Part shown: positions 1,117 through 30,012 of the stretch, in pieces
Layout: each line of letters begins with the position of its first letter
Position numbering within the stretch: the stretch's first letter is position 1
NCBI GenBank assembly: GCA_963969365.1
Contig: OZ017750.1
Location: forward strand, 3,534,001-3,598,000
From: Asterochloris sp. CNOR1
Taxonomy: Eukaryota; Chlorophyta; Trebouxiophyceae; Trebouxiales; Trebouxiaceae
DNA: 64,000 nt
Reading direction: 5' to 3'
Notes under the pieces: model-generated
What the model saw: only the letters and a program-made list of their open reading frames with translations
Told to the model about the DNA's origin: nothing
The model's database searches: none
Program-made: the position numbers and the translations under genes

Positions 1117-1271
1117 ACTTTCAACAGCTCAATGCGATCTATCCTGCTTGAATCAAAATGGCGACTTTCCTTCCGCTGTCACAAATAAGAGGCTGTGATT
1201 ATTGTTGGCTAGTCTCCTGCAGAAGGATCCTGCAGCACGCTGTTAAACTCTCTAGCACCAAGCCACTCGCC

Positions 1272-3500: not shown

Positions 3501-3531
3501 AGCAGCAAGGTCACTCCTGTCAGCCGACCTT

Positions 3532-6500: not shown

Positions 6501-6698
6501 GGTGACTCCCGGAATGATGCGGGCAGCCGCTGGGACTGCCTGTGGCTGCTGCCACTGCTGCTGGTATTGGTGACCAGCAGCCTCCTGCAGCTCCTCTGGC
6601 TGCAGCTGCTGCTCTTGCAGCGGCTCGGACGGCTGCCAGCCCTCCATTTGAAGATCGCCAAATGGGTCATCCTCCTCCTCCTGCAATGAGCCAGGCAG
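3532..6698 (-). CDS. FCP1: RNA polymerase II CTD phosphatase, FCP1/CPL type
   Basis: The enzyme dephosphorylates the RNA polymerase II C-terminal domain in the nucleus. Minus-strand exons, all with clear GT-AG borders, are roughly 6698-6410, 6051-5918, 5576-5456, 5374-5251, 4988-4828, 4396-4234 and 3693-3532. In order they give an acidic Gln-rich N-terminus (EEEDDPFGD), the catalytic DxDxT motif LDLDHTLIN, LEHIQMWTKLRPGVRTFL, HTNGNR, YAAAVVEVLDPSGDLFGAR, VVVDDTSTVWNDHEENL with VERYVWFPSS, then DVRDVLAAERQE. The last visible exon is a BRCT domain (FSRIIPLEHEPESHPLW, VTHVVA, TEK). This FCPH-then-BRCT order is the FCP1/CPL3-CPL4 layout. The first exon starts directly after an acceptor, so the initiator lies upstream (6.7-7.1 kb) and was not found. 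The 3' end of the BRCT domain past 3532 is also unresolved. The first intron holds a poly(G) tract and a degenerate tandem repeat. Confidence 0.9.
6122..6140. repeat. Poly(G) tract, 19 G
   Basis: An uninterrupted run of 19 G lies in G-rich surroundings (GGGCGGCG before and after) within an intron of the CTD phosphatase gene. Read as mRNA precursor on the minus strand it is a C tract close to a 3' splice site, where it could act as a pyrimidine tract. Confidence 0.9.
6241..6420. repeat. Degenerate tandem repeat in CTD phosphatase intron
   Basis: Two to three diverged copies of a roughly 75 bp unit: TGCCCCACAAA, then TTTCA-GCAGAGGGC and GCAGCCACC-CTTC, recur at about 6270-6330 and 6345-6400. 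CCCCACATCATCTGC appears at both ends of the array. The copies lie in the first recognised intron. Confidence 0.7.
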
Positions 6699-7377
6699 GG
6701 TGTGCAAGGGGCTGCTCTAGGCACTGCCAGGCACACAATGGCTGCTTGTGCAGCTCCTTGGAAGGTTTGTGGCTCATGTTTGCAAAGGAACCCACCTGCC
6801 TCCTAACCTTGATGTTGCACAATCAAGATTCAGTAGCACAACATCTGCTTTGCATGCGCCTTGCAAGCTGAGCTCGCACTAAACTGCTTTGCATATCATG
6901 CAAACATATGGTCATCAGCAGAGCCATGCCTCTATGCATGGACTGCTGCAGGGGCTGACAGGTCCAGCTTGCAAGGGTTGCATGGGCCAGCATACTGATG
7001 TGTCTGCCATCAGTTCCCACATCAATGGGCATGCAGCACAGCCGCCAGAGGGCTGATTAAGGCCTGCCCAACGTCACTGAGAAGTTCCGGGGCGCAAGAA
7101 GACAATCTGGCTCAAACAGGGTTGCAACTACCACCAGGAGGAGGCGTCAAGCAGGCGCCAAGCAGGCAGCCTGGCAACCTTGGGGGCATATGAAAACGAG
7201 AATGTGGCTGTCAGTGACGATTCCACAGTGCAAAAGACCACACTCAATCAGGATTGCAGATATTGGCTTCAAGCATGCCCAAGCGGGAAGCGTAGCATCT
7301 GCGCAGGCAAGTATTACACCGAGTGTGGTTACCCAGGGACAACTTTTGCAGGTAGACCGGGTGGCAGCCCTTTTGAG

Positions 7378-7640
7378 CTGGGCTCTCTGCGGGCTACATA
7401 CCTGTGCAGCATGGCCCACCTCAGGAGCCGCAGTGCAAGGCGGTGCTGGCAGGGGTTGCTGAGCTGGACTGCTGTGGGCAATGTCCCTTCGCACATGAGC
7501 TCAGAAGCCGCAGCCGAAGGGGTGCTGGCAAGGACATGCTGAGCTGGGCTCCTGCGGGCAACCAACCTGTGCGGCGTGGCCGGTCTCAAGAGCGGTGGCC
7601 TGAGGCGGCCCTGGGAGAGACAGGCTCTTGAGGGTGATGT
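7378..7640. repeat. Three decayed copies of an exon 3' edge with its donor
   Basis: On the minus strand the exon ending ETGHAAQ|gttggttgcccgcag is followed by two further copies about 90 bp apart, one reading EVGHAAQ|gtatgtagcccgcag. Each has a GT at the same place and similar flanks on both sides. The copies lie in the intron after the exon. Confidence 0.65.
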
Positions 7641-10600
7641 TGATGGCGTGCTTTGGGGCTGCGGCAGGGGGCTGACTGGACGAGTCTGCTGGCAGCGGCG
7701 CGTCAAACCAGCTGGTCCCATCGCCCAGAGTCTCCAGTGCTGCTGGGTCATCTGCAGAACAGTACCTCATTGTTTGATACATTTCGGTCCGACAAACGTC
7801 AATAAGAGTGGGGCATCAAGCGTGTGACCTGTTCAAGGCAGCTTCCATCGCCAGCCAGCACTTTGTTTTGCGGAACACTTGGCAAAGCAATTGATGAGCT
7901 GCATGTTTGAGCCTGAAGGGCTCACTGCTGTGGGGAGGGGGGAGGGGGGAAGAGGCAGGGTCCTCCATTGAGGCAGTATTTGCCGCAATGTGCAGCTGAT
8001 GGAGCCCTGAGCAGAGTCGCCGCAATTGTATGTTGCCGGGTAGCACCCTGGAGAGGGCCTGGCAGACTCCTGCCTGGCAGCTAGTAGACGCCAGAAGACT
8101 TGGCTTGGTGGTAACTGTCGAGACAGCAATGACAGCTAGTCCTGGAGGACCTCACCAGAATGCGAGTGACAACAGCTGCCGCCTACTGTGAGCACTCGTG
8201 CTGGCAGCATGACATACCTGTGTCAGGCAGCGGCGGCGGTGGCGGCGGTGGAGGCTCTGCATCCTCCTTGGGCGCCTGCTTGCCCCGGTTCCGTCTTTTA
8301 CTGTTCTCTTGCTGCTGCTCCCTCTGCTTGCGCCGGCGGCCCTGCAGAGCAGGCAAGACTTGATCAGTGGATGGACAGGTTTCCTGTGCCCTGCACCTGA
8401 CCATCACCTGCACACACAAGCAATGGTTTGTAAGCTGACAATGAGGTCTTTGTGTAGTGGGGCTGGTCTGTCTGCCCATCCTGCACAAGCAATGGCTCAT
8501 AGCTTGATGTCAGCGCCACAGCATTGCCAAACTGCATTGTGGGCAGCCAGGCAGGAGACCAGCACTTGAAAGGCTGTAAGGCGGCATCCAAGGAGAAAAA
8601 GGGGGGACAGATACAGACAGCACCCTGGCAAGCAGATTCAAGCACGAGATGCCACACAAGCACTGGTCCATCTTAGAGCCTTCGACTCAGGCCACAGGGG
8701 TGTCTTCATCCTGGCTGTGAGAGCCCACCTGCTTCCCCTGCGCCTGCTTGCCGTCTGCCTGGGCGTCCTCCTTGGGTGCCTTCCTGTTGGCCGGCTCCTG
8801 CTGCTTTTGCTTCTTGGCAGCAGGAGCAGGGACCGGCCTGGCGGGCTCTGTGCGGGGCCTCTTGGGCTTGGGTGGCTGCAGCGTGGCCTCCTTGTGGTCT
8901 GCCAGGGCCTTGAACACCTTGTCGTCCCGCACCCACTCTGACAGCTCCCTCTGCTGCGCTGCGGTGAACAGCAGCCGCTGCTGCCTGAGGGCAGCCCGCA
9001 CAGCCTCCCCAGCATCTGTCAGGTCAGCCGTCCTGCCCACACCTGCAGAAGTGGTGTGCTGATCTCTGTTGCATGCCACACATGGTCAACACCAGCCACA
9101 GCATCCTCAATACCAGCTGACATTGAAGCCTGCCCAGCCTTACTTGCTGAAGCCAGGGATGCGCACTGTTGCAGCAGCAGGGTTGCACAAGCCAAGAAAC
9201 TGACTGGGTGGGCTGCACAAGCAAAAGCTACGCGGGCCGACGGCATCCTTTCAGCTACGCCCACAGACTGCTTGACCTTAGGAGTACAGGCCAAGCTGAC
9301 CATGCCACTGCTGATGCCATGGGCTGTTGAGGCAGCATCCTTCTGCAGCTGACGCTCTGCTGTCATTCCAAAACTTTCTGGCCGCACACCTGTCTTGCAC
9401 ACCACATGCAGCGACTTGATTCCACCGAACACCCGAGCAGCGCTGGCTGCCAGGTCAGCGCTGCCATCCGCAGTGGCGGGGGACATCATGCGCTGCAGGT
9501 CGCTCAGCATCTTCACAGCTGCCCTCACATCTGAACTCACGCGCTCCAGCGCCCTGCAGGCAACAGCAATGTGCTATACAGCCTGTGCTTGGATGTCCGA
9601 AGGCCTAGCTGAGCATGTTTGCCACACAACAAGCCTTGGCATGAAGAATTCTTCACTAGCATATGTAGATGAGGTCAGGAGCAGCAGCGCTGTCAGAGCA
9701 TCTGGTTGATGTGGGGCAGACTCACTTCATGGCGTGCTGGACTCCCATGGCCTTGGTGGCGCCTGTGATGTCTGTCTGCAGCTGCTGAATTGCATGTGCA
9801 GGCACGCCATTGCTGCTGGGCCTGCAGGAGAAGTGCAGCTGCAGTCTGGCCCTCTGTCAAAACTTGGCGGCAGCTGTGGCAGGCAGCAACGCAGACCTCC
9901 AGGCCACCACCAGAATACTTCACCACCCATATGAGCCAACCCTCATCTGAGTTGAGCTTGTCGATGCATGCTGCACACTTGAAGGCAGATAGAGGCTCCT
10001 CTTTGACACTCATTGGTGCAGGTACCAAGATCCCTGAGACTGCCATCAATCCTTGCAACAGTATGGAGCTCTCACAGTTGGCAACGCAGGGGTGTCTAGC
10101 TGGTGGTACAAGAAGCGTACCTGCCCTGGTCATGCAGGCCAGGGATGCTCGCAGTGTATGCCCCCTTGGGTGCGGGCTCGGGCACATATCTTGCTGGCGG
10201 AGTGCGCGACCTGATTCTGCCATTGCTTCTGGCACGCAGAGGCGGAGGCGCAGGCCCCTGCCTCCCAATTGGCTGTCTGCACAATGCAGTGCACTGGCCT
10301 GGGAAGGGCAGCTAGCTAATGTCGAATTTGACAGTCAGTCTGTGTGATTTCGCGATGCCTCTTGAGCGACAGGCTTTTGGTGCTGGTGTGGCATGCCACG
10401 ACAGAGCTCAGCCACCTGGCAGCTCTTCTGCCTCACAGCTCTGCTGCTCTTCATAAAGTTGTTGCGTCAACCGCACTTGTGCCAGGTCGCTCTCATATAC
10501 AAGAGAGGGGGCTCTGGGGCTCCACGCCCTTTGGAGCAGTGCTTCACCGCCAGTTTGCTGCCGCTAGAAAATGCATGATGCCACATGAGGTTCGCCAGCA

Positions 10601-11595: not shown

Positions 11596-14500
11596 TCAGA
11601 AAGACTCGAAGCGGTTGACAGCGTGACGCGTCTGGCATACTACAGTGATCTGCCGGGATCCAGCCAGGGCGTTGGGCAGCACGCCACCTACCTGGTACCT
11701 GTCGTTCACGCACAGGCACAGCTGTACGCGCGAGGCCTGACTGGTGTACATATCCTCGTTGGTGGCAGCCGTGAAGTGCACCTCTATGGACGCCTGCAAG
11801 CCCAGTGGAGCATGTTATTTCTGGGCCTCAGGCGTGCTTATCTGTGACCATCATGCCAGCCATGGCACTGTCTTAAATGCTGGTGACATGTGCCATCAGT
11901 TGTGCCCCTTGCTTGTGGGATTTGCACAAATGTAACTGTTGACGCGGCCAGTGCTTGCGTCTGATGAGCCTGTCCATGACGTCGTTGCCGCAAGGCGCCA
12001 GCTGCTGCCGGCCAGCAGTGCACTGGCAATACGACCTTGAGAGTCAGCATGGTGGTCCTTGTTGTCAACCAAACGATCACATGCTGGCGGACCAGTCAAG
12101 TAGCCGCCCAGAGGTGCTGATGGTAGACAGCCCCTCAGTTGCAGATGCGAGAAGGCTGCCAGCAAAAGCCAGCAATGTATGTGACCAGTCCGTACACAGA
12201 CACTTTCACAGGCCAGCTTTGCAGCTGCCCCGCAGGTTGCCTTACCTGTGGCTCAAGGGCTCCGTCAGATGGGAACACGTCAAGCCAGTCTGGCAGGCCC
12301 AACTCTTCAGGGGTGAAGGTGGCGGCACGCTTCAGGGCGTAGCCTGTGGTAAGCCTCCACATGGCTGTGTGGTGCCCCGTGTTGGTGAGGCGCACAGAGG
12401 CTGTCGGCCGGTTGATCTGCAGCAGGTGCGGACAGTGGGAAGGTGTTGTGGAAAGTGGTCCTTGCTTTGCATGTAAAGAAAGTGGCATTGTTACTGCCTG
12501 CCTGTGCCCAGCAGCTGATACCGGCAGAGCACTGTGGGCATCAGGGGCTTCTGCAGGAAGTGCCCTGCCATGCACCCATCAGCCATCTTCAATGCTTGAA
12601 GACAGACAAGGACACAACCATGTAGATGGCTCCTGCCTCTGCACTGCACAGCTAATCTTGGGTGCCCTGAGGGTGGTGGTGTCCGAGCAAAGGCGCCACC
12701 TGACAGCCGATAACTTCTCATACGACAAAGTCACGATAAGTCACTCAGGATGAGTAAGCAGACGGCTGCCGGACAGATCTGGACAGCGGGCAACGGTGTC
12801 ATGGCGGCAAGTACTGGCAGAACAGCCTGGCACGGAGCTTTCATCGGGGCTCCTTTGACCCTGCTGCGGGCCGGCCTTGGACCCTAAACCCTGCATCCCC
12901 TTACCTTGCCCCATCTCGCAGCAGGCTCCACCCACAGAGACCGTGTAGCTGAGCCCTATGCGGCACGGTAGCATGCTTGGGCCCAGTTCAACATGATGCA
13001 GGCGCATTCTCACACAGCGCTGCCCCACCTCAGATGAGCGTACACTGTTGCACAGACACCTTCACCTAGACATAACATTGCAGGCCCCAGCGACTGCCTC
13101 AGCTGGAGCAGGCCCCACCTTCATTTCATGCCCCACCTAGCACAGGGTCACACTGCTGCAGAGACACCTCCACCCAAAACGATGGTACAAGTCCCAGCGC
13201 CTGGCTTACCTGATGCAGGCGCACACCCGAGTATGCTGCCCCGCTTAGCACAGGCACACACTGCTGCAAAGACACCCAACCTGATATGACAGCCCCAGTA
13301 GATGCCTTCCTGGTGTACAGTCAACTTGTGCCCACCAGCACGGGCACACACAGCTGCGCAGACACGACCGGTGCAAGCCTCAGGACCTGCCCCACCTGGT
13401 GCAAGCGCACATCGCTGGCAGACACTTCCACCCGCGGCTCGGCGGTGGGGGCAGACGCCGCATACGCCTGCTGCAGCAGGCGGCAGCAGACCTCCCGCTT
13501 TCGGTCTTGGATGACCACAGGCATGTCCACTGTCAACAGAGCCCACACAGGCTTGTGGTCTGAGTCAGTGACCTCCATGACAGCATCGTACAGCTTGCTG
13601 CGTACCTACAAGAGCAGATGTGATTTGATGGACTAGCAGCAGATAATAAAACACTCTGCTTTCACAGAAGCAGTTCATTTCAGCTGCAGGGCTTGCACAA
13701 TTGCACCGCTGACATGGGGCACCCATGTCACGGCAGGACTGCTGAGCTTGCAGCCTCCAACACAGGCCTTGCACTGCAGCAACAGGGTGTCCCACCACAA
13801 TCTCCTCTGCGTCCAGCGTGGGGGGAGGGGGCAGCTGAGCTTGGACGTCCCCTGCCTGAGTGGCGGGGCTGCCTGACGCATGGGGGCTGCCTGTGAGCTC
13901 CTGCAGGGCGGCAGAGAGCGGCAGTAACACACAGAGCAGAAGGTGACCCTTGCCAGGGCAGGAGAGCACTTCATCTTCAAGCTCACAATGCAGATCAGGA
14001 CTAGCACTACCTCTGCCAAAGGTGGCATCAGCCCAGGTGAGGGGGATGTGTGCTATCTGCGTATGACACAGAGAACCGCAGTCTGTAGGGACGCTGCCCT
14101 GTGTGCCAGGCGGGGCTGCCACTCCCTTTGAGCCTAAGGCTTTGTTGAGATGCAGGCTGCTCTGATGAGGTGCGGGCCGCTCTGCCCTGCAGGTGTTCAT
14201 GCAGCAGCAGGGGCCCACCTCCAGGCTGCTCCTGGCAAATGCGGAACTTTGATAACAGATGCGGTCATTCAGGCAAGGGTCTCTCTGACAGTCATCTAGC
14301 AAGAGGCCTGACCCCAATACTGTGGTGCACCCTGGGCAATGGATGCATGCCACTCCTTGCTGGCACGCAAGTACGCGGCAACATCACAGGGGCCCACCTC
14401 CACGCCGCTGCTGGCAAAGGCGGAGCCCCGGTAGAAGATGCGGTCAGTCCAGGCAGGGACCCGCCGCTTCTCGCTGGTGTCGTACTGCATGAAGTCGGAG

Positions 14501-17500
14501 CGGGGGCGCTGGGGGTGGGCCTTGTCAAACTTGTAGGTGGGCTTGAAGGCGATGGTGCCCTCCCTCATGTAGCGGAAGATGTGGCCGGCAGCCATTTCGC
14601 GGCGGCACTGGTCCTGCAGGTACATGAGGGCCAGTGGGACTGAGGGCTTGCAGCAGGCTGGGAAAGCCGTACACCACTCCTGCACCCTGCAGCAGGCTGG
14701 GGACTTCGTACACCACTCCTGCAGGCAGTCTTGGCGGCACAGTCCTGCCAGGGCAGAGGCAGCTGTTGAAGAATGTTGCCAGCACTTCCAGTCAGCTTGT
14801 ACAAGCGATTGCAGAAATGCAACAGGGCTGCAAACTGTGGCAGCGCTGCACACATGGCGACACTGGTCCTGCAGAAGGACACAGTACTAGCAGATGCAGC
14901 AGGTGGGCACACTTGAAGGATACCGCACTGGGAACCTCCAGCTTGCATTTGGTCATGCACAGGGTGGCCCACACATGCAGAAATTGCAGGAGGCCGAGGC
15001 CGAGGCGCTTAGCACAGACTGGCGCTGATGTGCAAGATTGCATTGTCTGAGTCAGTGAAGGTGAAGCTGCAGGCCCCAGCAGAGCACTGCAGCTCTTTGT
15101 CGGCGCAGGCCCTGCTTGGACCCTAGCCAAGCAAATAGCGGCATGCTCAGCATCCGCTCACCAGAGAGGCAGTCAGTGCAGACACGGCAGTCATCTGAGC
15201 GATGATGGGCAGTCTGCTGCTCTGCTTGCGCCACATTGACAGCCGAGGCTTAGGCAGAGCACAAAAAGCTGCACAAGCCGCCTGAGAAGCTCCGATTTCC
15301 ATAAGCAGCCCTGCTGGGGACCTCCATGAGGCTTCAGATCAGGGCAAACACGCCCTAAACCCTCAGCTTACCCTGTCCAGCAGCCACTCGAGATCCCCTG
15401 CCGAATGCGCCTCACTGCATCCTCATGGGTTACGCCGTCAATCCTGTAGTTGAAGTCGCCGCCCCACACCACCAGCTCGGCGTCACGCATGCCCTGACCC
15501 TGCAGGACAGCTGCCACCGCATAAGATCCTTGAAGATTGACGGAGGACAAATAGCCTTCTAAGAGGCCCCAGTACCGCCAAACGCTTTGATCGACGCGCG
15601 TCCTGCCAGAAAGGGCAGCAGCAGGAACGACTCCGCCTCATGGTTGGCACTGGACACCGCTCCTGTCGTCCCACAATGACGCATCCCCTCTGATGGCGCA
15701 TCCTGCAATGGTCCTGGTGCCAGCACCGATACTCCCACTTCCTGCACCTGACCCCTGACGCTGGCCTTGGCGATGCCAGGTGGACAGTGTCTTGCTCTGC
15801 AACAAGCTGCTTGCGCTGACCACACAGCAGAGCCTCACGCCGCACCAGATGGCGGGCTGAGAGGTGTGCAGCATCGATGAACAGGGCATCACTGTCTCAC
15901 TGCCAAGCTGTCCACTGCAGCCTGAACAGCTTGCTGCAGCACTCAAATACAGGCAGGTGCAACAGTAATGTGCTGCCGTGATGCAAGGATGTCTTTAATG
16001 AGTCCCATAATGGCAGGCATTACACAGATCGCTGTTCTGATGCATTGGCTTGTTGACCTATGCAAAGTCATCAGCGTCCTTGCCATAAAGCCTGAGCCCA
16101 TGGGGGCCTGAGTTGGGGCGCCTGTGCAACACTCTGACTGTATTGAACAACATCATCAGGGTCTGCATCAGTAGAGTCTGAGCAGGGGGGGGACTCAGTC
16201 AGAATGCCTGTGCAACACCTCTTGACTGACCTGAGCAAACTCATCAGGGTCTGGGCCAGTGAAGTCTGAGTCTGAGCGACCGCTGGGCGACTCATTGCCC
16301 GATTCCAGATCAGTCAGACGTGCCATCTCCTGCAGGCATCATGCAAGGGCAAGGTCCAGACCTGATAGCAGGGCGGCATGGGAATGCAGAAGCATGCGAG
16401 AGCAGACAGGCAGCTCCGCATCTGTGCAGGCTGGTCCCCACAGAAGCAACTCGTCATGCGCTGCCTGCAGGCGACCAAAGGATGGCAAGCCGCCATCTTG
16501 GAAGAAGCGGGGAGCAGTTGCAATGCCAGGCATTCTCTGCAGTTGCAGAACAGGACAAGACACCTGCAGTTGCAGCCTGACGGCAGTGACAGGGCTGGCA
16601 GCTCCTCAACAAGCAATCTGACGAGTGCAGCCCTCTGAAGACGCCATGCATCCCTGATCAAGCAGCAGCTGGGCAGCACTCCTTTGCTTTGGTGAGCCGG
16701 CGCAGTGCAGCACGTTGTCCCTTGATTCCAGCTGAAAGAGCCATGCGTAGACAAGCCATCCTTGTGCTGAGCATTCCTCAGCTGCTAATAACACAGCCAT
16801 CCCAACTGCCCTGCTCTGGCCTGTCATCCCAGCTTGCAGCAAACCACAGCCGTGAAGCAACCCAGGGGACGAACTCACCTTGCGCTTGACATGGTCGTCA
16901 AGCTCGTCCGTCTGGGACTGCACGTCATACCAGCCGCGGCTGCTGAAGTTGAGGTTGCGCATGATGGAGGCATAGTTCCTGTTCCTGTCCTCCACAGCCC
17001 CCTGCAGACCCCAACACTAGCCGATTGTGCTCATTGCTGACATTGAGGTTGCATACATGCTGTGCCTGTCCTCCACCGTTCCCCTCATCTGGTGCCAGTG
17101 GGCCAGGCTCAGTAAGCCAGTCCAGGGCTGCGCCACGCGCCCTACGCTGTGCAGCTGGGGTGAGTAAATACCATGCCGCCTTCAGGCAAGACTGTGCACT
17201 GTCCTGGCAGGCTGTCTGCCAACATTGCGGCATAAGACAGCAGTGCAGCCCACCTGTGCCATGCATTGACGTGATGACCTACAAAGATGTATATGATGGC
17301 AGCAGCAGTGCAGCCTGACCCACCTGGTGCGCCGCAAAGTGAGAGCATACGCAGGCCACCTTGCGGCGGTAGAGGGAGAAGGCAACCCCCACCGCGCCCT
17401 TGTTGCCGCCCACCCCCAGCACCCCACAGGCCACACTGGAGGTGCTGACCTCACCCAAGTAATCCTGCAGGTTATGGGTTACATCAGCCGCACAACAGAT

Positions 17501-20500
17501 GGCTGAAAGGCACAGCAGCTGACCAGGTCTATGGCGTCAAACTCCCAGGCAGGTCCTGCAGCAGAGCAACCTTAGGTTGTGTTGTTCATGGCAACTGCAT
17601 TGGGGCAGCATCCTCCAGGCAATGGATGCGCTGACCTGCTGGACTTCCCCAGAAAGTCCTAAACAGTCGCACTTCCATTTCTTGCTGATGATGTGGGAGG
17701 GACAAGCATGGGGGCTGCCAGGCAGAGGGCAGCAACCTCATCAGCATCACAGCCTCAAGCACAAGCTCAGGCAGAATTGGCACTGTCCCAGATAAAGACA
17801 GAAGTCACAAACTGGCCCCTCATGGTGGCATGGGGCTTTCTTCAGTGGGCAGCAAACCTGCCAACAGGCGCAGCTGCTGCTGACCTATTTGCATGCAGGT
17901 CAGACTGTGATGAGCGACAACGACAGATGTGCAGCCTCCAGCAGCAAGTCAAGAGCACTATCAACCCCTGGAGGTGACCACCAATCCTGAGCGCAAAGGC
18001 CATGTGAACAGCTAGCACAGCTGCACGCAGCACTCCTGCTGCAGCATGCCCCAAGCGGGTCCATGTCAAGCCCCTAGAACCTACCTGGAGGCTGGTGAGC
18101 GCAAACACCATAACGAGCATGCCAGACAGCTGGCGCAGGCCCACGTGCATCCAGCTGCCCCCGCGGGAGCTCAGGCGCCCCAACACGTGCTGCTGCCACC
18201 ACTGGGCATTGCTGTTGCCCTTCTCCTGCAGGCAGGGTGAGTGACCGCCTTTCAGGACTGGCAGGAGGTGCCCACTGAGCTGGGGTGGTTAGCCACCACT
18301 GGGCAATACTGTCGCCTCTCTCCTGCAGGCAGGGTGAGTGACTGCCTTTCAAGGATAGCAGGAGGTGCCAAATGAGGTAGGGTTGGCGGCCACAAGTCTT
18401 GAGATGCCGGGGGGGCCTCAACCTGGTGGACACACTCTGCACCATGAGCGTCTCAGGGGCAGGCAGGCCTCAGGGAACCAGGCTCGTCTGCACCCAGGCA
18501 TGCCTGGGGCAATTCATGTCTGCTGTGCAAGCCACCTGGGCAGACCTGTGCATCACATCTGTCCACGGCAAGCTCACCTGGGCTGACTTGCGGAGCGCAT
18601 CCTTGGCAGCGGCAATGGCCACGGAGCTGCTGCCCATCTCGATCTCCTGGAGGGCCACCACAACAAAGGAGGCTGAGGCGCCGGCCTCAGCCACTTTGTG
18701 GAAGAGACCGTTGTTGGCGTCGGGACGCTGCTGGTTCACATTCCAGGTCAGGCACATGACCTCGATGTGCTCCCTCCGGAGCGTGCCAGGGGCTTCTGCC
18801 AGCCAAGCTTCCCTGCACAGGCCAAACGCGCTGCACTTGAAGAGCTGAACACTTCCCAGGCCCCGTCGCCAGCCAGGCTCATTTGCAGGAGCACGTCCAC
18901 GAGAGCTCAAGGCGCAGGCTGGCAGCACTTTGGAATCAAGCGCCTGTGTCAGTGCACTGCAGGCAAGCAATGTCCAGGTGCATTGTGGGAGACAAGCCTC
19001 TGCCAGCCACAACTTTCTTCTTTGATGCAGAAATACCAGCGTGTTCACACTTGACCCAGCCGGCTGGGCCTACCTCAAGGAATGACATGAGTCATGTCAA
19101 AAGATGGTCTGTAACAGCCAACAATCACTGCAATAATTGGCTGCAGGACATGCACCCACGCTCTGATGAGCAGCACAGGGCCTCCAACACTCAGCTTGGA
19201 TTCAAGGGGCCACTCAACATTGACAAAAAGTGGTTTACTACGACAACCACACTTTATGGAGGCCTACGTATCCATCTAGAGTGCCTGCACAGCCTGACTT
19301 TGTGCAGCAGCAAGTGGTACTGACCATGGTGCGTCCTCTGAAGGCGCGCTGTTCTTGCCCCGGTCGCTGCGGTGCGCCTCCCAACAGCAAGCTGCAGCTG
19401 CAAAGTCAGGCCCCCTAGGAAGTCCATGCTCCCCGAATGCCGCCCCTGACCAGCGCCAAGCCACACCTAGCGCCTCCCAGGAGCAGTATAATGCAGCTGC
19501 AGAGCCAGGCTCACTGCAGCGTGCTCATGGGTCGCAACAGCCCTGGCAGTGCCCTGCGTCACAGGCTGCAGACCCAAGCCCACCTTCCTGCTCTCCTGGG
19601 CAGTCCAGGTGCAACCCCTGGATGAACCTCACAAGGCGGCAGCCCAATTTTGTGCCTCTCAATGAACAGCTGCAGACCCTGGCCCACCTCAGGGCATCGT
19701 CCTGGTCCCCTGGGCTGTCCACGCTCCACCCCTTGATGGAGCCATCAGCCGCCAGCGAGAACACACGGCTGCCGCACTGCACAATGTCGGTGATGCCTGC
19801 ATCATGTGCCTGCCACTCCCGAATGGCTACGGGCCCAATGGCCGGCTGGCCAGGGACGGCAGGAGCCAGCAGCGCCGCCCTGAGACGCCCGTCATTCAGG
19901 CCAGCCCATGCGTGGGTGCCGACCGCGCACATGGCTCCCAGGCCGATGCCAATATCCTACAGGGAATAAATGCACTCATGAGAAGCTGAAAGTGCACGGC
20001 AGAGTGTGAAGGGATTAAGTGGCTGTTGCTGCAACTACAGCTGAATGCCTTGTCCTTGTTTCTAACGCTCATTTGAGCATGACACAGCCTGGAAGGGCAT
20101 GCTAACCTTGCTGAACAGCAGCTTGCCGTGGGGAAGGTAGCGCTCTATCTTGCCATGCTTGAACGCCACGAACACTGTGCCATCTGCCCCAGCTGCCATC
20201 GCCTTCAGGTGGCCTGTCTTGGCCCCCTTCTTCTCCTCGCCATCAGTTTCTGCAGCCACATGCTTCCGCAAGCTGTTTGCAGCACCAGCTCCAATAATTG
20301 GAGGTCCTCCTGGGTAAGGTTCCTCCACTGCGGCAGCCTGTGCTGAGTGTCACTGCTCAGGGTGCCCAAGGATGAAGCAAAGGGCCCCTTCACGTGCAGT
20401 GCAGGCAGACATGGTCTGGCACGGGGTGACGCTGCCCCAACACCCCTTTCCCCGTCCTCTCTTGCCACCAAAGCCCCTGACTGCACTGCGGTCAACATGA

Positions 20501-23500
20501 CAGCACCACCTGGCCTGCACGTGGCAGTGCAGCGGGGGCAGCCTGCATGTCAGGTGATGGGCTCCGAAGCCAGCAGGTGCACGATCTCTTGCCAGGTGCT
20601 CAGGTGAACCCCTGCTTGTGCTTGTTCGTCTGCAGCACTCATGCCCAGCTGGGGGCTGGCATTCTGCCCTGCTGCACCCTGCTCCAGGTACACTGCCTGC
20701 TCACTTGGCGTACTGCCACCTGCCGCTGCATGCTGCCGTGATGCTTTGCAGTAGCAGAAGCAGGGGGCGCCACCGCACCTAAGTCCCCGTCGCCCTCTGT
20801 GACCACCTTGCGAGCACCAGAGACAGACTTGGGCTCCTGATCTGACGCGCCAAAGTTGCTGGCAATCTTCTTGCCCAGCTTTCCCAGGTACTTGGCAGCC
20901 TTGCCTGCACAGCAAATGGTACAAGCCTGTGATGCAGTGGCGATGTGACAACCTGGCAGCACCTCAGCCATCACAGAGCAACAGCAACTGCTGGACACTT
21001 TTGACACGCTTGAGCATTCTGCTGGACTAAGTGCGACTTTTTTGGCACCAACAGTGAGTCACACCGTGCGCGGTGGAGCGGCAGGCAGATGCCAGAACGA
21101 GTCCCCTTCAGATGCCCAGGCCAGTCAACGCAACTGTGTGGAGCAACTCAGCGGCTGCAGTTGGCCCCAGCCTGCAAGGTACACAGGTGCCTTGTCCCAC
21201 CTGCTTTCCCGGCCATCTGCTCGCTGGTGAGAGCCATGTGCTCGAACCACTCGCGTGTCCTCTTCTCGCTCTGCTGTCCCCAGGCCTCCTGCTCCTCCTG
21301 AGCTTCCTTCTTGGCAGAGAAGCCCAGCGGCTTGTTATCTATCTTCCCCTGCCTGTCCAGCGCCAGACCCTGCATGGCCAACGCATACAAATCTGGCATA
21401 CACATTTGGCTGCAGTGCAGGCACCCCAGCTGCTTGCTGTCTGTCTCCTCCTGCCTGTCCAGCCCCAACTCCTGTGGGGGCCAGGGCATGCACTCCTTGC
21501 AGATAAGCGCGGTTCTGCCTATCTGCAAGATAGGCAGATCCGCGCTTATCTGCTTAGTGACGACCCACGTTTGCAGTTGATTATGGCATGCGGTGCTTGC
21601 AACCTTGCAGGCGTGTTGTTGTCTGCTGCCCGCTTTCCCCTGCCTCTTTGATCCGGCGCCTGCATGGCTGAACATGCAGTTCGGCACCAGTGAGGGCTTG
21701 GTGTTTGTGTTGCTGCAGGTGGTGCGTCCCCTGAAATGGTGCAGCTTGCGGCATTCTAAAGCAAGAACGCCCTCCCAGTGCAGCTCCACCCCTGCATGGC
21801 CAGGGCATGAAGCAGTTCCTCTCCGCCTGCCAGTCCTGCTAAAAGCCAGGCAGAGCCACAGCATGCAGCATTGCGGACCGCCATCAGCAGATCAGCATTG
21901 CACATGCTGCTTGCATTGGTGGTGTCTCTGCCCATCTTGTTTCCCTGAAGCTGCTGGATCCCGCACAGCGGAGGAAGCAGACCCAACAAGGAAGTCAGCA
22001 CTGCACAGGCCCCGCGCATTGCTGGTGTCACTGCATATCCTGGTGTGCGCCTCCTCAACAGTGTCTAATGGCCTTGCAGTATGCATGCAGACCAGCACCT
22101 CTTGTCGGCGTCAGTGTGCATATGGAAGCGCGCATCTTCACGTGGCTAGAATGTCCCCAGGATTGTCCTAGGAAACTCAGTGAGGGACACAGTCCCAGCC
22201 AGCACTACACCCAGCGCCTCACCTTGCTGGTGTCGATACACATTTTGGTGTGCGCCTCCTCGATGTTGGTCCGCTGAGGCTCCCGCGCAGCAAAGGAGGT
22301 AGACTCTGCCAGCAGGCCCAGCTCCTTGTCCTTGTCGATGCAGCCCAGGAAGATGCCTGTGTAGGCGCACCACAGGCCCAGCGTGCGGTCCCCACCAGTC
22401 CACACCACCTGCACACAGGGAGCAGGGCAAGTGAGGCAAGTGGCTTCACGGGACAGAGGCTGAAGTGGAGCAGTCCCTCAGACCCAGACCACCTGTAAAA
22501 ACAGAGAAGTTCAAGGGCTCAGTGGGCACTCCCTCAAAGACACACCACTTGCACGCCCAGCCCAGAAACAGAGAGGCTACCCAAACCCCGCCAGGGTGAT
22601 CATATGGCAGGCTGGGGTGGAAATGCCACCTGTCCACTGTGCCTGATCACAGCTGCCTGCACATATGCCTGCAAAAGTGCATCCTGGCAGAGAGTCTGCA
22701 GCAAGAGTAGCAACGTAAGTACCAGGATGCTCATTCAGAGGCAATCGGCATCAGAAGAGACTCTGAAGAAAGGGTTGCAGCATGTGGCCTGGGACGGCAC
22801 AGAGTCCAGCTGCAAGCAAGCAGCATGAAGCCACTCAGCCTTCCCTGGGTTTCCTCAAGCAGCACCACGTGCGACACGGGGCCATGGGCCCAGGCACCTC
22901 AAGGCTACTACTGCAGAGCCGAACACAATGTGTCTGATACAGCTGGGCTCACCTGCACTGCACATTGCCATGGTGCCGCGCACCTCCAGAACGCCAGGAC
23001 AGACAGCAACAGGAGGCAAAGGCTTTAGCTTAGGGGTCACCTGGCCTCCCTTGGGCAGCATCATGTACTGCACATCGCCACAGGGCCACGCACCCCCAAA
23101 TTGCCAGGACAGACAGCAGCTAATGAAAGAGTTGGACTCACCTGGCCTCCCTTAGGCAGCACCATGTACTGCACATCGCCATGGGGCCGGGCGCCCCCAG
23201 GCCGCCGCAGCTCCCGCACTGTCTGCTGCAGCTCCGTCTTGTGGAAGACTGCAGCACGCCACACAGTAGCATCAGGCAGCTCGATCTTGTGGAAGACTGC
23301 AGCACGCAACAAACAGCATCAAGCAGCTCTGTCCTGTGCAAGACTGCAGCACAACAACACTGGAGCCTTGCAGCTCTGTGCTGGGAGCTGATGCAGCGTG
23401 CCCAGTAGCCTATGAGGTGCAGGGCAAGGATCATGAAACAAACTGAAGACATGGCCCACGTTTCAGCTGGTTGTTCCTGACTTAGCTGCTGGCCTCAGGT

Positions 23501-26500
23501 CACAACTCACTGCCCAGAGGGTCAGCACTCGTGTGCACCTGTGCAGATGCATTGCTTTTGCTCTCCTCTGCCTGTAGTGGCTGTCCATGCTCAATATAAG
23601 CGCCCCAGCTTTAGTGGACACCCTTCAGGCCCTCAAGCTCACCCCTCAACATGATGCAGCTGGGAATAGGGAATTGCCAGGGCCTTGCATTCATTTGAGC
23701 CACCGTCAAGTCAAACCACACGCAAACTCACTGGTTGCGCGTCCAGCCCAGAATATAGGCAGACCCCTAATGCACTAGTCTTTCTCCGCAGGCAGATGGA
23801 GTCACAGCTGAAACTGCAGACGCTTCTGATCCTGATTTCCAAGCTCCTCAGCCACATGCAAACCCTTCCAAAGCCAAAAGGCCAAAATGGATGTAAACTG
23901 CTGTGTGCTCCCCAGCCACACTCAACCTGCCAAGCCCAGGCCAGATGCAGACTGAGATCACGAACTCACCAGGTCTGTTGGCTCCCAGCCACACGCGGAT
24001 GATGCCCCGACTGCTGCCCGTCCACAGCTCCCCCCAGGGTGTGGTGCACATGGCTGTGACGTGCCCAATCCTGTGGGCCTGCCACCTCTTCAGCAGGCGC
24101 CCCGCCAAGTAGGTCCCTGGCTGGGACCCCAGTGAGAATCCGCAGACACGCCCATCAGCGTGGCCTGTCCACAAGATGCCTGCAAGCCAAAACAGGAGCT
24201 GAGCAGCTGCTTGTCAGGCTACACACTGGTGTCTGCCAGACTGTGACAAGGACGCCGCAAACCAAAGCAGCTGGGCACTGTAGGTTGCATCTTCTTGGTA
24301 CCCAGAGCTGTCCTGTCTTCTTGGCATGGTCTGTAGGTCTGGGGAGATGTGCAGCAAAGCGGCCACAGCATTCAGGGGCTTCAGCCAGACTCACAGCTCA
24401 TGCTGGCAGGGCAAATGGTAGTAATCTAACACACATGAGCAACACATCACCTGCCAGCCATATACGTCAGAACTTGCATGTAGGTTCCTGAAGAGGTGAA
24501 ACACATCGCAGATTCCACAAGAGGTACAAGCATGATGAGGCTGCATGCAGGCCATGCTTTAGGCTGGAAAGAAAGCCTTAGCACGCAGGCAGCTCTGCGC
24601 AACACCAGACCAACTCACTGATCCCTGAACAGACTCTGTAGTTCCTATAAGCCACCCTCTTTATCTGTCTGCAATCTTTCTGAACGCAGGCAGGCTGCAC
24701 AACATAGAGCCCTGCTCAGCACACCCTCGACAAGCCCTGTTGTCCCTCTTACCTGCCACCTCATCCACATACAGGCAAGTGACTCGCTTGCACTCCTGAA
24801 TGGGCACCTCGCAGCTGGGAGCTGCATCACTGTCCTCAGTGTCTGGGCGCTGCAGGGCATCGAGGCGCATTGAGGCCCCTCCATCCCACCGGAACTGCGT
24901 GCTCCTGCACAGCAGAGGCATGAGGTCAAGCGGGCGGCAGCCAAGAAGCCTGAGGTTGCAGACCACTGCAGCGCTTGGGATGCATTGTGACCCCTGGGCT
25001 GCTGCACAGCAGAGGTGCAAGCTTGATTAATAGCCAGCAAGACAGAGGCATCTTGACATAGAAAGGACCTCTGTATTTCAACAACTGCACGCCGCCCCAT
25101 CGCAGGAAACACACCATCCACTGGCACAGGTTGCAGCTGCACCCCATGCTGGTGCTTCTCCCTCAACAAAAGCTGACAGCAAGCGTGCTGCTGCTTGCGT
25201 GCCAACTGGCTGGCAGGGGTCCTGAGACAGCGGACATGTCCAAGTGCAGGATACAGACTCACGGCTGCTCATAGCGTGGCATGCCGATCTGGCCCTCGGG
25301 GTCGCCCCACTGCAGCAGAGCGCCGGAGGCACAGGGCGCTGCAAACAGCGAGCCGCCACCAGCTGCCAGGAACTGCAGGCGCGAGGTCGTCTTGGGCCGC
25401 AGCAGCGGCAGCCGCACATCCACAGAGACAGGGGCCACCATCGCCACTGGCCGTGCGGGGCCCAACTGCACGCAAGCAGAGAGGCATAGTCAGGGGCGCC
25501 CAGTGAACACTAAACTGCCAAATGGGGGGCACATGACGCAGCCCTGTGAGGACAGAGGAAAGACCCCTCAGCATGGGCCGCAACAGGACACCTGCACGCA
25601 GGCAGCAAAGGGTGCCCAGAACGTCTTCTGAGCCTTGGGGGTGGTGCATCACTGCAGGTCTGTGAAGGCAGAGAGGGGTGCAGTCGAGCACGCGAGCTGT
25701 GCAAAAGGGAGCCAGGGGCATGCAGAGAGGGACACAGACAGGCCCAAGAGATGTGTCAAGAATCTGGTTCTGCACAAAAAAATAAGCCAGGGGCATGTAG
25801 ACACTGCGGCACTGCAGGCAGTCCTGGGCTGACAGAAGGAGGTTGGTGGAGCACCCAGAGCGCACACTGGCCACTTGCTGCCTGCCCTGCAAGCGTCACA
25901 GCCATGCAGAGGCAGCGCAAACATGTCTGCGCTCCCCCTAGATAGCTCCAGAGGCAAGCCTCACTTGTGCAGGCCATTGAGGAATCAGGGGCACCCAGAG
26001 GGCATTGTGCAGATTGCAAGCTGAGTCTGGCACCTAGAGCACGCATAAGGCACCTGAAGGCTGCCCTCTGAGGTGACAGCCAGGCAGATGTAGTGCATAC
26101 ATACCTGTGGTACTCAGGAGGTGGCCACTGCTACCTACATGCTTGTTTGCTTCTTGCATGCAGCCCAGTAAGGGCGCAGGTGCGCTCGAAGGCCACTGTG
26201 CTGCATGTGACATGTGTTGAATGCCCCCATCCAGCGCTGACACCCCCACAGAGGCGGTGAGGACACACCTGTGGTCCGCCCGAGGAGACCGAGAGGTGGC
26301 CCCGGCTGTGCAGCTCCGGCTCGCTGTCGTGCATGTGCAGGCTGGCCCGGCTGGCAGCCTGCGAGGCCCACTGGTGGGCGTCTGAGCTGTCGGGGTCAGA
26401 GGCCCCCACCAGCTCCTCCTGCGTGTCGGAGGAGCTGGCGTCAGACAGTCGGCGCCCCATCTCAGGGGAGGGGTCCCCGTAGCCGGAGTCTCTCTCCCCA

Positions 26501-29500
26501 GGGGAGGGCTGCATGCCCGCCTGCCTGGGATGGCTGGCAGGGGGCAGGGGCGGCCGGTGCTGCAGACTAGGGCCCCTGCCGTTCGCTGCCCCCGGCATGT
26601 CTCCTCCAGGGGAGGTCTGGAACGGGTTGGGGCCGTCAGGCTCCGGCTGGGCCATGGCCAGCTGTGGGGGCGGCAGCGGCGTCCCACCATTCTGCAGCAG
26701 CCAGACCGCCGGGGCGGCGGCTTCAGCCGCCGACTCGGGGGTCAGAGCGTGTCCCGTCTGCAGCACCAGGGGCCACCTCAGCAGTCCTGCCGGACAGCAT
26801 CCCATGTGGCACACAGGGTCACTTGAGCACTGGTGCAAGCCGGCTGGACACCGAGGCATGCCACTGGCATGCATGCTGCCACTGCAGCAGCTGGACAGGT
26901 CTGCAGACCTGCAGATCCTGGCAAGGGGCCTGATCTACAGGCACATGCATGGCTGCACCACGCTTCTGCAGCCAGTCAGACCTTTGACACGACAGCAGCA
27001 CACACTTGGACAGGGCTGCGCATGCTTAACCTAATTGGAAGTCATGTGTCACCTGTACCAACGCGACTAGCCGGAGAGCCACTGCAAACTGGTCCAGTGT
27101 CAGGCCATCCCCCTGTGCTGGGGCAAGGGCTTTTGCCTGCTGCCACACCTGCACCACCAGGTGTGGGGTCTTAGGCAGCTTTCAACGGTGCACATGCGTC
27201 TGGGAGCAGGAGGCACCCGCAGGCTGGCATGCAGTGTCTCCAGCAACAGAACAAGCCTGACAAGACTAGATACTGATGACAGTGGTGCATATCTGCAGAG
27301 CAGCCAGCCTAAACGCTAAGCCCGCCATGCGCACCATGGACAGGTTGCCTGGCTGCAGGCCCGTCCTCAGGAAGAATCGCCGCGCCGCCTCGCCAGCCAA
27401 CCTGCAGTCCAGACAGGAGACGTCATTGAGGAATGGACGCCGGCTCACTGACCAGTGACAACAGCTTTGCAGGAGAGGCGCCCTGCAGCATGGCCTGATG
27501 ATAGATTTTAGGGTGCAAGAGGGGCGCAGCAATTGGAGCAAAGAGTGGTGCCCTGGGGGTAAACCCGACCAGACTGCAGGGACAAGCACCTGGCAAGGCA
27601 GGTAAGCTGCGTGTCTGCCCGGCTGCTGAGCAACAGCCCCAGCCAATGAATCACGTAGATGTGCACTTTGAGTGCACCTGCAGTGCAGAAATTTCGGTGT
27701 TGCTCTGGGAATGCAGTCTTTGTCAGGTGCTGTTGTTGTTCTCTGACAGTTCACATGCTGATGGAGGCACTGCACAAGTTGCATCACTGCACCTGGCCCC
27801 CAGGGCGGCATGCTGCATCAATGCACAACCGCTCTACCCTTGTATCAGCTGAGCGAGCAAGCTGCTGGCACCAGGAAGCCCACCTCTGGTCCTCGTTGAG
27901 GCCGGCGGCCTCAAACAACTGAACCACCTCGGCAGGGGACATGCCGTCAACCCCCACGCTGGCGGGAAGCCGCTGCGTCTGCCACAGCTGTGGCCCCGTC
28001 TGTCCAGCTGGGGATGACGCCGCAAGCAGGTCAGGATGGCAGGGTGCAGGCTGCTGCCACGGCTGCTGCTGCTGCCCTCCCTGGCCTGGTGCCTGAGAGG
28101 CACCTGGCGGCGCCCATGCAGGTGCAGCCGGCATTGCATCACCAAAGGGATCCCAGGCCTGCAGCAATGTTTCTTTCTGCCTCCAGAATGTGAGCTGAGC
28201 AAAGCCTGCAGCTGAGAGCTGGTGCTGCCAGAGGCAGCTCAGATGACAGGGCTTGCATTGCTGAGTCGAGCTGCTGGATTCAGTTCAGCCTGATCATGCC
28301 CAAGGACACAGGAGAGCAACAACCCTCCCCTGCACCACTCTCTGGATAAGCTGGGCTCTCTGACGATGAGCAACAGACAGCACAGGCCGGAGAGCCCTTG
28401 CTGCCCAAGCCTGACAGCACCAGCACTCCTGCAAAGCCTGCCACAGTGTCCCAGGGCTTGCCTGTAAGGTCTCCTGGACGGCAGCGCCCGCCAATGGACT
28501 TGCCTCTGCAGTGCCCAGGACAGAGGGCCCTGGCAGGGACCCACTGCTAGCAGCAGGCTGCTCAGAGGCCCCTCCCAGGCCTGCGCCGCCCCACAGCGGA
28601 TCCTGTGCTGGCGCCCCCGCAGCTGCCTGGTCGCCTCGACACTGCCCCTGCCCAGCGCTGGCCAGGGAGCTGCTGCTCCCGCCGCGACTGCCTGCCGAGC
28701 TCTGCAGCAGGGCCGCCTTCATGGGGGAGCTCCCTACCCGGAGCGGGCTGGACAGCTCCGGCGGCAGAAGGTCCTGCAGGGTGGCAGACAGCGATTGAGG
28801 TGCCATGCCACAGCTCTGGCTGTGGGAACTTTGGCAGGGCTGGCTGTCAGGGAGCCTTGTCTGCGGAGGGCTGGCTGGCTCTGATCCTGCATGCGGGTGC
28901 TGCATGTCAGCCCTGTGTCCGCTCTGCAAGTGGGTGCTACATGTCAGCCCTGTGTCCGCTCTGCAGGTAGGTGCTGCATGTCAGCCCTGTGTCGCTCCGC
29001 AAGCGGGTGCAACATGTCAGCCCTGTGTCCGCTCCGCAAGCCGGTGCTACATGTCAGCCCTGTGTTCGCTCTGCAGGCGGGTGCCACATGTCAGCCCTGC
29101 GTCTGCTCTGCAAGCGGGTGCTGCATGTCAGCCGTGTGTCTTTCAAGCGCCTGGTTGGGTCTTGGAGGCAGGAGGACCTGCAGGGTACACCCAGACAACA
29201 ACTTGTCTTCTGTCGAGCCCACACAGAGCTGGAGCTGCCTGGATGGCTGACCAGCTTGCGCACCAGAAGGGCAACAGTGGCGCTCAGCGTCGCAGAACGG
29301 CTTCCCTCTCAAACTAGCCGTGACTGAGGAGCTGTTCAGGCATCTGCCCCACCCACAAGCTTATTCCATGAAAAGTCGGCATATCTGCAAGATCTTGGCA
29401 GTTGATGTGAGGGCGTGCACAACAGTACTGCAGCCATGTTGCACTGCCTGCAAAGCAGCAACTGTCGACTCAGAAGAGGGACGGAGTCTGCAGCTGTATT

Positions 29501-30012
29501 GCGCATTGGCGGAAGATTGTCTGTTGCTCGAGACCTCTTTGCCCACCCTGCAGGCTGCACTGTGCAGCTCAGAGACCCCAGGCAGCATCTGAGCCCTGAA
29601 TCTGCTCAGGTTCCATGACAGGTGGCTTCAGCGACCTTGTCTGAGGGGCTGCAAGTGTCGCCATCTCAAGTGAGCCACTGTTGCGCACTGCAGATCCTGA
29701 GCACGGGGCGCAGTGCCAGCACACCTGGAAGGCGTGGTACGCGCGCTTCCCCGCAGGTGATGCGGTCCTAGCTTCCCCTGTGCTGCTGGGTGCAGCATGT
29801 CCTCTGGCAAAGGGGTTCCCGCTGCTGAGGCTGCCTCCACTGAGGTTGCTGCCAAGAATGTCAGGGCCTCTGGGACTGGAAGGTAAGCTCCACGCAGAGG
29901 ACCCACTGAATGAAGGGCCGGCTTGCTGTATTCCGTCGCCTGGACCTTGATTGCTGGCATTTCTGGAGCTAAAGATGGCCTCAAAGGGGTCTGGCTGGAC
30001 CCCAGCAGGCAT
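11596..30012 (-). CDS. EH domain - WD40 propeller - inositol polyphosphate 5-phosphatase fusion (FRA3-like)
   Basis: An 18 kb gene with over 20 exons. The likely start at 30012 (MPAGVQPDPFEAIF) follows an in-frame stop with no AG between. Exons 30012-29725, 28773-28462 and 28158-27884 carry DPF and NPF motifs. An EH domain spans 28.0-27.05 kb (FEAAGLNEDQR, ARRFFLRTGLQPGNLSMV, DQFAVALRLVALVQ). A disordered linker with PNPFQ follows (26757-26269). WD40 exons match Arabidopsis FRA3: 25465-25263, 24904-24753 (CKRVTCLYVDEVAG), 24180-23970 (ILWTGHADGRV), 23.29-23.14, 22408-22223 (VVWTGGDRTLGLW), 21369-21201, 20.9, 20.3-20.1 and 19956-19688. The 5-phosphatase follows: LTWNVNQQ and ALQEIEMG (18812-18578), WMHVGLRQLSGML, GGNKGAVG, WGGDFNYRID (15499-15372), RRVPAWTDRIFY (14613-14398), TDSDHKPVWALL (13605-13396). 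The C-terminus matches the FRA3 tail (12416-12246, 11793-11692). A WD40-5-phosphatase hydrolyses the 5-phosphate of inositol phospholipids; the EH and NPF parts suggest membrane traffic. The last exons are uncertain. Confidence 0.85.
13020..13440. repeat. Four decayed tandem copies of a 5-phosphatase exon edge
   Basis: The true exon end (13396 onward; plus strand CCCCACCTGGTGCAAGCGC, then TCGCTGGCAGACACTTCCACC) is followed in its intron by four diverged copies at about 13321-13366, 13241-13283, 13131-13175 and 13020-13066. Each keeps the CCCCACCT-type donor complement and a CTGC-CAGACAC core. Spacing is about 80-110 bp. Confidence 0.75.
14188..14285. repeat. Decayed copy of the PAWTDRI exon of the 5-phosphatase
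   Basis: About 180 bp from the true exon (14368-14463), this intronic segment keeps CAGGGGCCCACCTCCA, CTGGCAAA and AGATGCGGTCA. On the minus strand the true exon reads RVPAWTDRIFYRGSAFAS and the copy reads RDPCLNDRICYQSSAFAR, so the copy has lost the catalytic-site residues yet keeps the donor. Confidence 0.8.
18185..18370. repeat. Tandem duplication of a splice acceptor region
   Basis: Two copies about 100 bp apart share CCACCACTGGGCA, then TCTCCTGCAGGCAGGGTGAG and GGCAGGAGGTGCC-type ends. The first copy is the true exon 5' edge (minus-strand acceptor ctgcag|GAGAAGGGC, exon start 18225). The second lies upstream in the intron. Confidence 0.85.
21500..21552. repeat. Near-perfect 25-bp inverted repeat with 3-nt loop
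   Basis: The left arm 21500-21524 and right arm 21528-21552 pair at 24 of 25 positions around the loop GCA. The arms contain ATAAGCGCGG and CTGCCTATCT. It lies in an intron of the EH-WD40-5-phosphatase gene and could form a stable RNA hairpin or a DNA cruciform. Confidence 0.9.
22855..23365. repeat. Tandem copies around a WD40 exon, on both of its sides
   Basis: The exon at about 23142-23290 is flanked below by three diverged copies of its 3' edge (about 22855-22890, 22948-23015, 23038-23125), each with TACTGCACAT-GCCA and CCAGGACAGACAGCA-type ends. It is flanked above by two copies of its 5' part (TCTTGTGGAAGACTGCAGCA at about 23282-23305, then TCCTGTGCAAGACTGCAGCA). Confidence 0.8.
28895..29140. 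repeat. 37-bp minisatellite, about 7 copies
   Basis: About seven consecutive units of roughly 37 bp, each of the form GGTGC-(T/A)(A/G)CATGTCAGCC, then CTGTGTCCGCTCTGCAAGC. It lies in the intron between the first two exons of the EH-WD40-5-phosphatase gene. Copy-to-copy divergence is low, so the array looks younger than the other intronic repeats here. Confidence 0.9.

Follow-up and report, generated by a model that had tools for sequence, protein, structure and literature searches.

Asterochloris sp. CNOR1 probably encodes a FRA3-type inositol polyphosphate 5-phosphatase that carries DPF/NPF motifs and an EH domain ahead of its propeller

The plant Group III, WD-repeat inositol polyphosphate 5-phosphatases are represented by FRA3 and At5PTase12-14. 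The four Arabidopsis members have several N-terminal WD40 domains, members from Arabidopsis, rice and soybean are reported to combine WD40 domains with a phosphatase, and, as far as the main text of that paper goes, the term "EH domain" is absent from it (PMC6562803). A plant EH protein, AtEH1 of the TPLATE complex, is described with two EH domains and a coiled coil and as otherwise unstructured (PMC8144573). According to a further source, OCRL and synaptojanin remove the 5-phosphate from phosphatidylinositol 4,5-bisphosphate [PI(4,5)P2] in animals, few of the 15 Arabidopsis 5-phosphatases are characterized, and the enzyme that clears PI(4,5)P2 in clathrin-mediated endocytosis of the plant lineage is not well settled, with SAC9 as a candidate since earlier work suggests that it is a PI(4,5)P2 5-phosphatase in planta (PMC9436410). 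Here we analyzed a 64-kb stretch of DNA (the window) of the green alga Asterochloris sp. CNOR1, taken from contig C5 (3534001-3598000) of its genome assembly (21 contigs, 56.4 Mb in all), and describe a minus-strand gene in it that appears to join elements of these systems.

The gene was modeled manually as 26 exons on the minus strand, with its ATG at 30012 and a TGA stop whose last base is 11596 (Table 1). Its 25 introns measure 150-979 bp (median, 497 bp), and 24 of them are GT-AG, the remaining one, after 28462, being GC-AG. Splice phases agree at 20/20 junctions from exon Nx1 to exon P6, inside which a one-base frame slip follows, and the last four junctions (P7 to C2), downstream of the slip, are mutually in phase. 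The encoded order is DPF/NPF motifs, one EH domain, an NPF-bearing linker, an IP5PC_F propeller, a 5-phosphatase core and a weak immunoglobulin-like (Ig-like) tail; these domains, their order on one strand and the matching splice phases were obtained by computation. The preliminary description of this DNA, made from its letters, had placed the same elements on one strand, in phase across introns, between 30012 and 11596, all of which the model bears out; the slip in P6 had been overlooked there. On balance, we favor the reading that this is one FRA3-type (plant Group III, WD-repeat) inositol polyphosphate 5-phosphatase gene with a disordered DPF/NPF region and a single EH domain before the propeller.

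The propeller and the enzyme were recognized readily. Beta-prop_IP5PC_F (PF23754) scored 73.8 bits against a cut-off of 27, and Exo_endo_phos2 (PF22669) scored 92.5 bits before the slip and 71.9 bits after it, in agreement with the FRA3-type propeller and 5-phosphatase core read earlier. The last propeller exon, W9, reached 15.7 bits by itself, below the cut-off of the propeller model. The translation contains TWNVN, LQEIEMG, NKGAVG, SHFAAH, WGGDFNYR, PAWTDRIF and SDHKPV, which we take to be the catalytic motifs of 5-phosphatases. Among solved structures, the best relatives of the catalytic core before the slip were synaptojanin-1 (E value, 4.6e-15) and OCRL. Ig-like_IP5PC_F (PF23755) gave 23.1 bits in the C-terminal tail, under its cut-off of 27, and Syja_N had no match in the scanned gene model. 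The order of propeller and 5-phosphatase, recognized with plant-type Pfam models, is shared with FRA3/At5PTase12-14, and the weak Ig-like match behind them may correspond as well; the window gene adds the EH domain and DPF/NPF region.

The EH domain (PF12763) scored 23.6 bits on the 115-amino-acid spliced domain, with a Pfam cut-off of 22 bits; NCBIfam gave no match to it. Nine solved sequences matched it at E ≤ 1, the best being EH1.1 of AtEH1 (6yeu; E, 1.3e-4), followed by REPS1, POB1, Eps15 (E, 0.004) and intersectin, and EH1.2 of AtEH1 (6yet; E, 0.28) ranked last. Thus, the EH domain proposed earlier as close to Eps15 repeats was confirmed, while its nearest solved relative proved to be a plant domain that ranks ahead of Eps15. 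The domain is of the EH1.1 type, with a Trp and an LTPE tail that align with those of EH1.1, and from its position we infer that this Trp corresponds to W49. In EH1.1, the W49A change abolishes binding of a double-NPF peptide, and calcium sits in the first loop (PMC8144573). In the alignment, the first loop of the window EH has lost most of the acidic ligands of EH1.1, so calcium binding by it is unlikely. Compared singly with the EH domain of an EHD-type protein encoded on contig C7, the window EH showed 31% identity over 102 columns (E, 2e-7).

Outside the EH domain, four (D/N)PF motifs were found in 402 residues that contain just 7 Phe, and this count was reached in 0/20,000 shuffles (mean, 0.05). 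Two DPF and one NPF stand before the EH domain and one NPF lies within the linker, as the preliminary description had noted for both regions. This enrichment would suit an endocytic protein. A search with the N-terminal 509 amino acids indicated that the region is single-copy in the genome, since six of the seven matches were the window itself and the seventh had an E value of 0.75.

The join between linker exon LNK and first propeller exon W1 decides between one gene and two, and it was examined with a purpose-written gene finder (a periodic Markov coding model, splice matrices and a two-strand Viterbi path), which was seeded with the propeller, phosphatase and tail exons of the window and then trained in five successive rounds on loci elsewhere in this genome that add up to 200 kb, the window being excluded. 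It reproduced Nx2, EHa, EHb, LNK and W1 with the manual borders and phases. LNK had a coding score of +27.1, a value reached by none of the null stretches (0/64 same-strand, 0/507 antisense), and the frame extended past the donor to the next stop scored -22.2; because the coding signal ends at the donor, LNK is unlike a last exon. A gene boundary forced into the 803-bp gap between LNK and W1 cost 26.0 nats (24.8-27.0 over five settings), within the range of the 19 core introns from propeller to tail (15.5-31.2; 11.1-32.3 over five settings), and the inferred gene end after C2 cost 10.1 (5.8-11.1). For calibration, 380 artificial tandem boundaries were built from 21 gene ends and 21 starts; the pairs are not independent, and 20/21 ends and all starts are predictions. 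They had a median cost of 5.8, a 95% point of 15.1 and a maximum of 20.0, and 0/380 reached 26.0; 17/380 reached 15.5, so these chimeric boundaries overlap with the cheapest core introns. These data indicated that the LNK-W1 join, which is in phase and scores like core introns, behaves as an intron. The earlier proposal is thus supported in part, its fused architecture by domain scores, splice phase and this calibrated ab initio test.

Several observations weigh against a single fused gene. The gene finder tends to join, as it yielded 0 same-strand, 9 convergent and 6 divergent boundaries over 20 loci, and its free path treated the entire window as a single gene on the minus strand. Free prediction was accordingly rejected as proof of one gene, and because of this tendency the one-gene verdict rests on the calibrated split costs. 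In addition, W1 carries an in-frame ATG of its own (about 25441), at which an independent FRA3 gene could begin, preceded in tandem by a small endocytic adaptor composed of the DPF/NPF motifs, the EH domain and the linker. The second gene would then be an ordinary FRA3-type 5-phosphatase with the WD40 and phosphatase composition of the plant members cited above, a short intergenic region would fit into the 803 bp, and this ATG is the one used by the best of the forced splits. However, that split needs an invented 14-bp last exon, its cost lies above 380/380 chimeric boundaries, and the linker loses its coding signal at the donor, so that we give two tandem genes a low probability. A further test of this boundary was discarded. 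We took TGTAA to be a green-algal polyadenylation signal, and none was present between linker and propeller; the test was dropped as uninformative because putative introns show no sense-strand shortage of TGTAA (57 sense, 46 antisense). Its frequency is as expected (ratio, 1.02), and it is absent for ~4 kb past the last stop (next at 7318).

Other points concern the EH domain itself. Within the 503-amino-acid N-terminal piece it scored only 19.5 bits (E, 9e-4), under the Pfam cut-off, and exon EHc, with a coding score of -4.0 (224/3052 same-strand null stretches as high), was omitted by the gene finder. As EHb is also in phase with LNK, EHc might be skipped in a single gene, or, given the loss of acidic ligands from the first loop, the EH domain might have decayed, leaving a disordered N terminus without EH function. 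On the other hand, no Pfam EH match remained when EHc was taken out, and the score was 21.5 bits without the linker tail, so EHc and its join to LNK are supported by homology. The splice sites of EHc also score well (acceptor, 9.2; donor, 5.3) and the pocket Trp is retained, and the probability that we assign to a skipped or decayed EH domain is lower again. The other EH exons had coding scores of 3.0 (EHa, which contains an alternative start; null stretches as high, 0/1111 same-strand and 8/2791 antisense) and 6.0 (EHb; 0/2934 and 21/3735). The EHa-EHb split cost of 14.0 (11.8-28.9 over settings) falls within the range of chimeric boundaries, below their 95% point, and since it does not exceed them this join rests on homology. 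Upstream of EHa, the coding scores were 0.3 for Nx1 (29994-29725; null stretches as high, 0/1142 same-strand and 39/2857 antisense) and 7.7 for Nx2 (0/796 and 0/2325), and Nx1 was predicted in part by the gene finder (29725-29887). Splits there are cheap, at 4.9 in the main settings both at Nx1 (2.7-16.6 over five settings) and between Nx2 and EHa (2.7-24.4), so Nx1 and Nx2 may or may not belong to the gene.

The one-base slip in P6, near a GGGG run at 15398-15395, means that the gene could be damaged. Read in one frame, P6 yields ...VRRIRQG; in another it continues to the donor as DLEWLLDR, which is compatible with the following exon and similar to RKGDLESLIKADEL, found at the equivalent position of the 5-phosphatase paralogue on contig C17. 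Either a fault in the assembly or a genuine lesion may underlie the slip. Least credible of the three alternatives is a fused but decaying gene whose enzyme is lost or shortened within the phosphatase by an alternative donor, since, despite the slip being present in the sequence and the gene finder preferring an in-frame donor at 15416 that restores phase, the exons after it keep catalytic motifs and coding signal (P7, +28.7; P8, +10.1; weaker in P9, +2.8, C1, +4.5, and C2, -0.7), and stretches such as the four G at the slip are a common site of assembly errors. Besides P6, the free path of the gene finder departs from the manual model at Nx1, EHc, W4, W8, P3, P9 and C2, the last of which it gives as 11742-11793 and joins onwards. 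A homologue with the same fusion was not found in the collections searched, which are of viruses and prokaryotes.

In the genome, the FRA3-type propeller passes the cut-off solely at this gene; at E ≤ 1 the profile gave three matches, two in this gene and one on C15 (13 bits). Exons of 5-phosphatases occur at three loci, C5 (this gene), C6:779-781k and C17:1773-1779k (12 matches), and the C17 model, which we presume to be type-I-like, matches the domain over profile positions 1-242 of 288. Syja_N had 12 genome matches, on C3, C1 and C6:926-928k, and since none is near the three 5-phosphatase loci, no synaptojanin-type Sac-phosphatase fusion was seen in this exon-by-exon search. Chlamydomonas reinhardtii likewise has three 5-phosphatase genes (PMC6562803). 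The EH profile, searched in the same way, gave three matches elsewhere and missed the window domain because it is split over four exons. An EHD-type protein (C7:1138001-1148000, 5054-9903) has an N-terminal EH domain (45.7 bits), EHD_N, a dynamin-type GTPase and two NPF; an N-terminal EH domain is the plant arrangement of EHD proteins and, like the plant-type propeller matches of the window gene, gives the genome a green-algal look. A second protein (C5:3350001-3360000, exons 1015-8324), likewise unusual and endocytic in appearance, has DPF and NPF motifs together with an EH domain that just misses the cut-off (21.7 bits against 22) and ends in an Aida_C2 domain (87.3 bits). A weak EH match of 14.3 bits lies in an apparent EF-hand protein. 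The window gene shares EH and NPF with the first two proteins, and DPF with the second, and has a phosphatase where they have a dynamin-type GTPase or Aida C2. Searches with PF02296 (adaptin ear) and PF23755 (Ig-like_IP5PC_F) found no genome matches and none in control genomes either, so they are uninformative on absence.

Compared with AtEH1/Pan1, which has two EH domains, a coiled coil and no enzyme, the window gene has one EH domain and a 5-phosphatase, and it does not belong to that type. Synaptojanin and OCRL share with it a 5-phosphatase expected to act on PI(4,5)P2 in endocytosis, and differ in that the window gene has no matched Sac domain and no RhoGAP and bears its EH domain in cis. 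The long form of synaptojanin bears NPF and binds Eps15. The EH domain probably targets the enzyme to NPF partners in endocytosis. At the plasma membrane or early endosome, its pocket would engage endocytic or membrane proteins that bear NPF, and the DPF motifs would contact the ear of an adaptor. Retained in this way at clathrin-coated sites, the enzyme would turn PI(4,5)P2 into phosphatidylinositol 4-phosphate during vesicle maturation, the late step for which animals use synaptojanin or OCRL. An adaptor provided in trans in animals would here be built into the enzyme, an idea already put forward in the preliminary description, with which the conserved EH Trp and the NPF/DPF motifs are consistent. 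More speculative, and in our opinion doubtful, is the wider proposal that a green-algal lineage lacking a Sac-type synaptojanin built a self-recruiting 5-phosphatase, with EH domain and NPF/DPF motifs, that removes PI(4,5)P2 at coated vesicles and possibly self-assembles through EH-NPF contacts. As a "Rosetta stone," the EH-FRA3 fusion hints at cooperation of this plant-specific group with the EH/TPLATE machinery. The testable prediction that follows is that land-plant FRA3 proteins, for which no EH domain is described, might associate in trans with AtEH1/2. The literature covered by our search, seen in part, describes no EH-5-phosphatase fusion, as the preliminary description had supposed; one may sit unremarked in protein databases.

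Table 1. Exons of the manual gene model in window coordinates
Exon	Position	Strand	Content	Basis
Nx1	29725-30012	-	first exon, starts MPAGVQPDPFEAIF; one DPF and one NPF	model
Nx2	28462-28773	-	disordered, Ser/Gly/Ala-rich; followed by GC-AG intron	coding score, gene finder
EHa	27884-28158	-	DPF motif, then first helix and loop of EH	Pfam, gene finder, coding score
EHb	27335-27401	-	middle of EH (LAGEAARRFFLRTGLQPGNLSM)	Pfam, gene finder, coding score
EHc	27053-27148	-	second EF hand of EH (VWQQ...LDQFAVALRLVALVQ), conserved Trp	domain homology only
LNK	26269-26757	-	EH tail and linker with NPF (GPNPFQTS)	coding score, EH score gain
W1	25263-25465	-	first propeller exon; phase 0 to LNK across 803 bp	gene finder, split costs
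W2	24753-24904	-	propeller	Pfam, gene finder
W3	23970-24179	-	propeller	Pfam, gene finder
W4	23142-23248	-	alternative acceptor gives 23142-23296	manual model, gene finder
W5	22223-22408	-		manual model, gene finder
W6	21201-21369	-		manual model, gene finder
W7	20779-20904	-		manual model, gene finder
W8	20107-20327	-	alternative 20107-20249	manual model, gene finder
W9	19688-19956	-	last propeller exon	manual model, gene finder
P1	18578-18812	-	start of 5-phosphatase (TWNVN, LQEIEMG)	Pfam, gene finder
P2	18085-18225	-		Pfam, gene finder
P3	17324-17464	-	GGNKGAVG, SHFAAH	Pfam; gene finder gives 17360-17464
P4	16879-17001	-		Pfam, gene finder
P5	16231-16329	-		manual model, gene finder
P6	15372-15499	-	WGGDFNYR; frame slip; in-frame alternative donor gives 15416-15499	genome profile match
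P7	14398-14613	-	PAWTDRIFYRG	Pfam, gene finder, coding score +28.7
P8	13796-13900	-	insert exon	manual model, gene finder
P9	13396-13605	-	SDHKPV; end of 5-phosphatase	Pfam; gene finder gives 13396-13470
C1	12246-12416	-	Ig-like/ASH-like tail	manual model, gene finder
C2	11596-11793	-	last exon; TGA ends at 11596 (inferred gene end)	manual model

Repeats were observed at three places within the gene model, all given on the minus strand. At the start of W4, a near-repeat offset by 48 bp (about 23310-23242) yields two in-frame acceptors (23296 and 23248). The intron preceding 28773 holds a tandem-repeat-like stretch (acagggctgacatg..., about 29140-28880), and the intron before W6 holds a hairpin-like inverted repeat (cagataagcgcgg... 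/ ...ccgcgcttatctg, about 21560-21500), perhaps the trace of a small mobile element. No tRNA genes were found in the 64-kb window. Upstream of the gene, a zinc-ribbon-like open stretch (HCPICGATCSSLSQQ...YCVRCN) lies at about 31840-31700 on the minus strand, and about 340 bp past the stop codon a probable next gene on the same strand starts with MSEKEEGELSEEGELVEQ and runs from about 11253 downwards.

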